DNA from: Strigops habroptila
Lineage: Eukaryota > Chordata > Aves > Psittaciformes > Psittacidae
DNA length: 64,000 bases
NCBI RefSeq assembly: GCF_004027225.2
Contig: NC_044282.2
Span: 75,216,287 to 75,280,286, forward strand
Direction: 5' to 3'
The notes beneath the pieces were generated by a model. The model had not been told where the DNA came from and did not search any database. It was given only the letters and a program-made list of their open reading frames with translations. The position numbers and the translations under genes were made by a program. The number at the start of each line of letters is the position of its first letter. Within the stretch, counting starts at the first letter, position 1. Shown piece by piece: positions 30,301 to 33,300 of this stretch.

Positions 30301-33300
30301 TGGGAGAAAAGAGAACGGGAGAAAAGAAAATGAACACATTTACCTGTGTGGGTCCTTTTGTGGCCAGTGAGTTTCCCTTTATCAGCAAAGCAAGCCCCGC
30401 AGTCCTCACAGATATATGGCTTTTCCCCTGTATGGGACCTACATGAAGGGAGACACAAGTGACAATAAATTAACTCATTCTTAAAATATTCTGTTTGAAA
30501 CCGTGTTCTGCACACTTCATTTTTCCAATGCAGTGGAAAAAGCACATTCTGCTCACTCAGGAGATAGAATCTTTAAAACAAGGATAGGTGCTAGAATAAA
30601 GCACTAAACCTCCCACTTAAGTTTCACCTTTTCCTCACTCAGGCCCTACAAACCCCACCTCTCTCACAAGTTGCAGCTCACAGGACTGGCAGCAGAAGGG
30701 AGGAAGCAGGGATGACAAGCTGCTGCTGTGCCAAAGACTGAATGTACATCCAGACTGTGCCCAGCCCAACGCCAGCAGCAGATCCCTTCGGATACTGTGG
30801 GCCATGTTCTTGGCTCCTGCAGTCTCTCCACCTCGTGCTCTCCAGGCTGCAAACTTTAACTGGCAGGATACTCCCGTTTTTAAGGCAAAAGGCACTAAGT
30901 GCTGTACATCTGACTTTAAACTAGCTCAAATCGGAGAAAGTCTGAGCCTAAGGTTTGTCTTAACAGTGTACCGAGTCCTCTTACTGCAACTCAACCAGCA
31001 GGATGTACAAAACCACACCTCGCTTTGACCTGTCAGGCAAAACGCTGCAAATTGAGACAGCAGTTTCCCACCAAAAAGCCCACGGGTGACTGTTCTGTTG
31101 CTGTCACACCACGTCTTACACGTGGCACAGCTTGGCTGCGTTCCAGCTGACAGACTATCCAGCCATTCAGATGCCTGCAAGAAACCTGGAGAGGGGCTTT
31201 GGACAAGGGCCTGTAGGGACAGGCCAAGGGGAATGGCTTTAACCTGCCAGAGGGGAGACTGAGATGAGCTCTGAGGCAGAAGCTCTTCCCTGTGAGGGTG
31301 CTGAGGCGCTGGCACAGACTTTTCCCAGAGAAGCTGTGGCTGCCCCATCCCTGGCAGTGTTCAAGGCCAGGTTGGACACAGGGGCTTGGAGCAACCTGCT
31401 CTAGTGGAAGGTGTTCCTGACCGTGGCAGGGGGTTGGAGCTGGAGGAGCTTTAAGGTCCCTTCCAACACAAACCAGGCTGGGATTCTATGTCCTGCTGGT
31501 CCTGAATCACCACTTTTTAAATCCCTTAGGAGAGGGAAGCAAGCTACAGTCCCCACTGCATAGGCCACAGTCTTCAGTAATGGGATTTCCCTCCCCTAGC
31601 TCAGCCCTCCAACAGTTAACCTCCTCTTCCACACTGTGCTCCCCACTTGGAAAAAGACTAGAATTCCATAAGGATGATTCACCCCCTCCTGGGAGAGGAC
31701 TCAGTGACCAGAGATACCACCAGAGAGCAATTCATCCAGTCTAATGACTACAGAGGGAGCCCAGATGTGAAGACCAGCTTCTGTACTTCTGTACTGCTTC
31801 TGTACTGCACACCAGAAGTGAAATCCCACACTAAGTGACTTGCTCGGTGTCACACAGAGCGAGCAGGGCTCAGCACTGGGATCCCTGAGGCCCCTGACTC
31901 ATTCTACACTACTTCTAATCACTGAAGGCCATCATCTTATCGTGCAGCCTGTCTCCAATGACCAGCTTTTGCTCACTAGATGCCTGGGGCATGCATTCCA
32001 AACCCCTGCCCGAAGTGATGCAATGGCCAGATGCTGACAGAACCTTTCCGTAAGAGAATTAATCACAGATCCTACAGGACGAAATGTGAGGAGAGCGAGT
32101 TGGAAATGGGACGTCAGAGGAGGAAAAGGAAGAGCTGAAGCATGCAGGGAACAGGAGCAGGGTGCTGCAGGCTGACCTGGTGTGGATCTTCAGCTGTGAT
32201 GGCTGAGCGAATCTGGAGTGACAGATGCCACATTCGTAGGGTTTTTCTCCCGTGTGTGTCCGCATGTGGAACACAAGAGCTGTCCTGGAGCTGAGGATCT
32301 TCCCACAGACAGAGCAGAGCGGGCGCTTCACTCTGCCCTCGTGCTTCCGCATGGAATGTGTCCTCACGTCCCTCTTCCTTTTGAAGGTGGCGCTGCAGAG
32401 GCTGCAGGCGAAGTGCCGCTCCTCGGTGTGGACACAGGCCCGGTGCTCCTTCCAGCTGTTGTAAGTGGCGAAGGCCTTGCTGCAGATGTCACACTGGTAC
32501 ACCTTACCCGGCAGGCACTGGTGGACGTCTCTGCAGTGATCCACGTACTTCTTCCGGGACACAAACTGCTCCTTGCACTTCTCACACCGGATCACGTAGG
32601 CAGATTTCTTCTGCACCCTGCTTTTATTTACCTTCTTTACCTTGAACTCTTCATCTGATTCATGTTCCTCACCACCCTTCTCGTTAGAGTATTCATCATC
32701 CTCATCGTCCTCCTCCGTACAGACCTCGTTGTCTCTGCTATCATCAGCTTCTGAGCACCCCACGTCATCACCCGCCTCCTCCTCGCCCTTCACACTCATT
32801 TCACCTTCATCTTCCTCCCCTTCTTCACACCTTGCTTCACCTTCCTCACACTTCTGCTTCTGTTCTTGCTCACTGCTACAGTCTGCTCCAGCAGCACATG
32901 AACCCCCAGGTTCTTCCTCACAACCCGTGGCCTCTTCATGCCGCACACGTTCAGGCTCTGATGTCCCAGCCCACGTCCCTCTGCCAGGACCTTTGTCACA
33001 GCTCGCTGCGTCTGGCTGATGCTCAGGTGGAACCACCATCCAGCAGACAGGCACGAGCTGCCTCTCCTGCCCAGCCTCGTGAGCTTTTCTGTAAAACAAA
33101 CAAACCACAGAGCACAGCTTCAGTAAGTTTCATTGTTTCAGCTCAGACATGTTTGTCTTAGAGGAAGAGTCGTTTCCTTTTCATTGTTCTTCAAACCATT
33201 TGAGATATCAACAGCATGTTTGGAGAGCCAAAAAACAGGGAAACTTTGGGCAGAGTTGGACCAGGTAATTAGAGAGAATTAAAATGTCTCAGTGTATAGA

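Follow-up and report, generated by a model that had tools for sequence, protein, structure and literature searches.

How does a BTB zinc-finger gene use an internal exon that repeats its own finger block without the BTB domain? The question is raised by a 64,000-nt stretch of the Strigops habroptila genome (GCF_004027225.2, NC_044282.2, positions 75,216,287-75,280,286), hereafter the window, in which two GZF1-type genes lie in tandem, both on the minus strand. One of them is referred to below as GZF1 and the other, which carries the additional exon, as the paralogue; the additional exon itself is called the cassette. The elements of the two genes are listed here in window coordinates.

40751-41750, strand not assigned: CpG-rich stretch upstream of the paralogue
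36070-34767, minus strand: paralogue BTB main exon, from the ATG; BTB domain and five finger positions, finger 3 broken; donor AAG/GTACAG
33088-32177, minus strand: paralogue cassette exon; acidic linker and five C2H2 fingers, the last completed by exon A
30438-30344, minus strand: paralogue exon A (finger 6), 95 nt
30163-29996, minus strand: paralogue exon B (fingers 7-8), 168 nt
29114-28957, minus strand: paralogue exon C (fingers 9-10), 158 nt
27583-27338, minus strand: paralogue terminal coding exon D, 81 codons and stop, found via a 13-residue GZF1 match
27095-27100, minus strand: AATAAA, the paralogue's likely polyA signal
26501-27250, strand not assigned: CpG-rich stretch between the two genes
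23208-21866, minus strand: GZF1 main exon (BTB and five fingers), homologue of the cassette exon
20088-19994, minus strand: GZF1 exon A
19050-18883, minus strand: GZF1 exon B
18178-18021, minus strand: GZF1 exon C
17826-17467, minus strand: GZF1 exon D

The gene carrying the cassette appears to be a GZF1 paralogue, complete-looking in sequence. Its main exon scores 84 bits with the Pfam BTB model (E 1.1e-23; cut-off 20.5), and exons A, B and C measure 95, 168 and 158 nt in both genes. In exon D, the match to GZF1 is confined to the first 13 residues (E 0.021 and 0.007). Together with these GZF1 exon lengths, the layout of five plus five fingers is present: the cassette with exons A-D provides ten pattern fingers, and the BTB exon with exons A-D provides nine. 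The CpG-rich stretches at 40751-41750 and 26501-27250 are likely the promoters of the paralogue and of GZF1, respectively. The paralogue may well already be an annotated gene. Elsewhere in the window, about 90 copies of TTCTC form a tandem array (12114-12564) near exons of a plus-strand gene, which we take to resemble NAPB, and diverged tandem repeats of the TGCAACATGCAGTG type, with periods of 14, 21 and 111, occupy 4069-4499, where several frames are open on both strands.

The cassette is a real, intact, in-frame internal exon. The original prediction had described it as a frame-neutral exon of 912 nt with equal phases at its two ends, and this was borne out: the exon is 912 nt long, is preceded by AG and followed by GT, has phase 2 at both ends and reads through 303 whole codons with no stop. 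The frame stayed open in 0 of 2000 dinucleotide shuffles, and the other two sense frames of the exon hold 8 and 28 stops. When the minus strand between 27 and 37 kb was scored with a textbook consensus splice-site matrix, the cassette acceptor ranked 5th among 828 AGs and its donor 13th among 595 GTs; by U1 pairing, the donor ranked 22nd of 595. The exon also has the acidic linker attributed to it, and Pfam detects no BTB domain within it, again as predicted. Many retrotransposon fragments in the window, presumably CR1-like (for example, 18400-18830, 31000-31490 and 33300-34370), include some in both introns flanking the cassette; because such fragments are spread through the window, they are not special to this exon.

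Comparison of the finger blocks bears on where the cassette came from. Over the five fingers, 62 of 138 positions are identical between the cassette and the GZF1 main exon, 45 of 136 between the cassette and the BTB exon of the paralogue, and 47 of 136 between GZF1 and that BTB exon. The signatures FKRKRDV, ILSSRTAL and FAQPSQL were found in the cassette, which, with the 62 matching positions, upholds the earlier observation that its fingers repeat the order and signatures of those in GZF1. Protein searches covered the genome (1.15 Gb, 89 contigs). For the cassette query, 149 matches were listed (130 of 554 candidates scored), the top three being the cassette itself, the GZF1 main exon and the adjoining BTB exon. 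The BTB-exon query had 96 matches listed (97 of 460 candidates scored), of which the first four fall inside this window; among the matches listed, GZF1 is the best for the BTB exon outside itself. The cassette is a third copy of the GZF1 main exon that lacks the BTB domain, and the part of the original proposal that makes this copy an in-frame internal exon, here of a complete-looking GZF1 paralogue, is supported.

Synonymous sites among the three finger blocks are near saturation (pS 0.716, 0.707 and 0.573). Where two blocks share an amino acid, its codons are different in 18 of 44 cases between the cassette and the BTB exon, in 33 of 62 between GZF1 and the cassette, and in 23 of 47 between GZF1 and the BTB exon. 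There is only a hint that the cassette may derive from the paralogue's own main exon rather than from a third gene. Retrocopies recording the splicing of the cassette were not found, as a DNA search with the cassette, in which very common words were skipped, matched the cassette alone (1 of 1 candidate).

We next compare the integrity of the two finger blocks of the paralogue. Cassette fingers 1-4 keep all 16 zinc ligands, and at positions where GZF1 and the BTB exon agree, the cassette is changed at 0 of 15 ligand sites versus 10 of 32 others (Fisher p 0.012). Fingers 1-4 of the BTB exon keep 15 of 16 ligands, the second His of finger 3 being lost, and two of their hydrophobic core positions are occupied by R and P; changes in this exon affect 1 of 16 ligand sites versus 23 of 45 other sites (p 0.0012). 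With the Pfam zf-C2H2 model, the BTB exon scores 27.7 bits, with no single stretch passing E 0.01, and the cassette 47.9 bits, with three stretches passing E 0.1. A codon model with one ratio gives omega 0.159. Making the BTB-exon branch neutral worsens the fit (lnL -1414.39 versus -1409.75 when free); with a neutral cassette branch lnL is -1410.07 versus -1409.75, and neutrality is not rejected. Judged by these substitution patterns, the BTB exon's finger block has itself evolved under constraint, and the cassette looks like the better kept of the paralogue's two finger blocks. The damage to the BTB-exon fingers beside an intact cassette would mildly favour regular inclusion of the latter, and it is this difference, with 16 of 16 ligands in one block and 15 of 16 plus a damaged core in the other, that leads us to rate regular inclusion above a regulated switch.

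The predicted products differ in more than length. Skipping the cassette yields 656 aa with 9 pattern-intact C2H2 fingers and including it 960 aa with 14; the GZF1 product has 707 aa and 10 fingers. The two forms of the paralogue had been expected to carry about 10 and about 15 fingers, and both numbers have to be lowered by one, since the second His of finger 3 is missing from the BTB exon. The claim that each junction completes a C2H2 finger was correct, the patterns being H-x3-H for the skip and H-x4-H for the include junction. At the latter, the last finger of the BTB exon is closed without a TGEKP linker. At the other end of the included cassette, exon A completes the last cassette finger with a TGEKP linker, so that the cassette and exons A-C form a full GZF1-like ten-finger array. 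Inclusion restores this array and displaces the BTB-exon finger block upstream: a spacer of 164 residues, with D or E at 50 positions, parts the BTB-exon fingers from the cassette fingers. The original prediction of one domain of about 15 fingers must therefore be revised to two groups divided by a spacer.

How much weight the junctions can bear depends on how easily they arise. A His at an allowed junction spacing occurs for 372 of 5236 AG sites on the minus strand and for 455 of 4879 on the plus strand; when 130 open codons are added to the His spacing, 21 minus-strand and 23 plus-strand sites are left. What makes the skip junction work is that the donors of all three main-exon copies share codon position and phase. 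Its compatibility is inherited from the duplication and hence does not speak for skipping.

At the end of the BTB exon, the homologous donor AAG/GTACAG is weak, ranking 85th of 595 GTs by the matrix, and a second site overlaps it.

34766-34774, minus strand: rival donor CAC/GTAAGG, 5 nt upstream of the homologous donor; last exon base 34772; phase 0

By the matrix, the rival is the stronger of the two (3.09 versus 0.11); by U1 pairing, it is not (-5.1 versus -5.6 kcal/mol). Its use would shift the frame of both products, giving 454 aa when joined to the cassette and 443 aa when joined to exon A. We also considered a donor within the BTB exon that would bypass the fingers and rejected it: four sites in 34700-36070 score above 2, and the sole phase-2 site among them, at 35070 (2.29), lies after the start of finger 2.

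The BTB exon and the cassette probably belong to one transcription unit, since the DNA between them contains neither a CpG nor a polyA break. No CpG island was found between the two exons (o/e 0.09-0.33 in 500-bp windows over 32901-34900), and neither AATAAA nor ATTAAA occurs between 34766 and 33089. An independent promoter and BTB exon for the cassette had been named as a finding that would refute the proposed switch; we saw no CpG-type promoter, though one of another type could still lie there, and a minus-strand search upstream of the cassette gave no separate match to BTB with E of 10 or lower. Nor was there a second set of exons A-D, stray matches outside both gene models being short (in the cassette's downstream intron, 16 residues at best, E 0.084). 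With an o/e of 0.61-0.63 over 32251-33000, the cassette body does clear a loose CpG threshold; the same holds for parts of the BTB exon, the exon C region and the GZF1 main exon. The cassette also contains an AATAAA at 32628.

Taking these results together, we give a probability of about 0.5 to the reading that the paralogue has retained, as an ordinary in-frame internal exon, a second copy of the GZF1 main exon without the BTB domain, which is probably included in most of the paralogue's mRNAs. The cassette would be joined into BTB transcripts, and the resulting 960-aa product would consist of the BTB domain, a partly damaged five-finger block, the acidic-rich spacer of 164 residues and a GZF1-like ten-finger array. 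The cassette array would bind DNA, and the older finger block may be under relaxed constraint because the cassette replaces it beside exons A-C. The starting points for this reading are read directly from the DNA: the exon, its frame and splice sites, its homology, its zinc ligands and the lack of a CpG or canonical polyA break from the BTB exon. Against regular inclusion stand the constraint on the BTB-exon block, the weak donor of that exon, the rival frameshifting donor, a junction His that could be due to chance, and the CpG content and AATAAA of the cassette. Several of the same points can be read in favour of a regulated switch, in which tissue-dependent skipping would produce either the nine-finger protein of 656 aa or the fourteen-finger protein of 960 aa, both with a BTB domain. 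The length and phases of the exon (912 nt, phase 2/2) are those of a regulated cassette exon, frame and C2H2 pattern are preserved at both junctions, the weak BTB-exon donor could make exon choice tunable, and constraint is seen on the BTB-exon fingers too. We nevertheless regard such a switch as doubtful: its compatibility with skipping is inherited from the homologous donors, the cassette splice sites rank high, and the skip form would depend on a finger block that has lost a ligand and core residues.

A poor BTB-exon donor would equally suit a start upstream of the cassette, which would turn it into an alternative first coding exon. Here an in-frame ATG at cassette codon 17 would open a BTB-less protein of 509 aa, perhaps competing with the BTB form; the cassette with exons A-D does make up a GZF1-like ten-finger protein without BTB, and the cassette body passes the loose CpG threshold. 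This arrangement is unlikely given the low CpG o/e across 32901-34900 and the 16 codons ahead of the ATG, which contain no stop and continue the phase of the BTB exon; moreover, the high-ranking acceptor implies that the cassette is likely spliced to something upstream. Least probable by far is that the exon is a non-functional relic, a leftover of duplication absent from mature mRNA. The codon model does not reject a neutral cassette branch, but decay is hard to reconcile with a frame that stays open for 303 codons, as in 0 of 2000 shuffles, with intact splice sites and with the retention of all 16 tested ligands at 62 of 138 identities.

If the cassette is used as an ordinary internal exon, as we favour, a transcription factor would have gained a second DNA-binding block through duplication of a large exon minus the dimerisation domain, and the first finger block would then be free to change. 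The paralogue and its intact GZF1 neighbour would allow a direct test of a changed DNA target.

The closest known system is GZF1 (ZNF336) itself. The paralogue is its tandem neighbour and shares a BTB main exon, the lengths of the downstream exons and the finger order and signatures; GZF1 has one main exon and ten fingers, whereas the paralogue has a second, BTB-less block and a partly damaged first one. In mammals, NXT1 and GZF1 together are reported to flank the cystatin cluster (PMC4201479). Eight tandem pairs are described among alligator BTB genes (PMC11477308), in the main text of which the name GZF1 does not appear. No tandem paralogue of GZF1 in which the finger block is doubled was found in the literature as covered by the titles and beginnings of abstracts listed.

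Alternative exons are known to arise by duplication of exons in tandem (PMC9013439, PMC9741552), and the paralogue resembles the cases described there in having a duplicated coding exon in tandem, with the frame kept and probably inside one gene. The pairs treated in these two papers, as far as the portions consulted go, are mutually exclusive, whereas the upstream copy in the paralogue carries the BTB domain, so mutual exclusion of the copies would be asymmetric; neither paper uses the term "zinc finger" in its main text (0 occurrences). A different precedent is Drosophila lola, most isoforms of which are described as having a common BTB end and a differing zinc-finger part (PMC6329818). In the paralogue, too, the choice of the finger block placed behind a shared BTB exon could be a matter of splicing. 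Lola isoforms, by the same account, vary in the C-terminal finger part, whereas the block of the paralogue would be internal and the 3' end common. We put forward only tentatively, as rather improbable, that splicing picks one of two diverged five-finger blocks to be docked through TGEKP to the common five-finger tail: the damaged one upon skipping, or the GZF1-like one upon inclusion, with the other block then kept across the acidic spacer. If so, the paralogue would represent a vertebrate, internal-exon counterpart of the lola type of finger choice.
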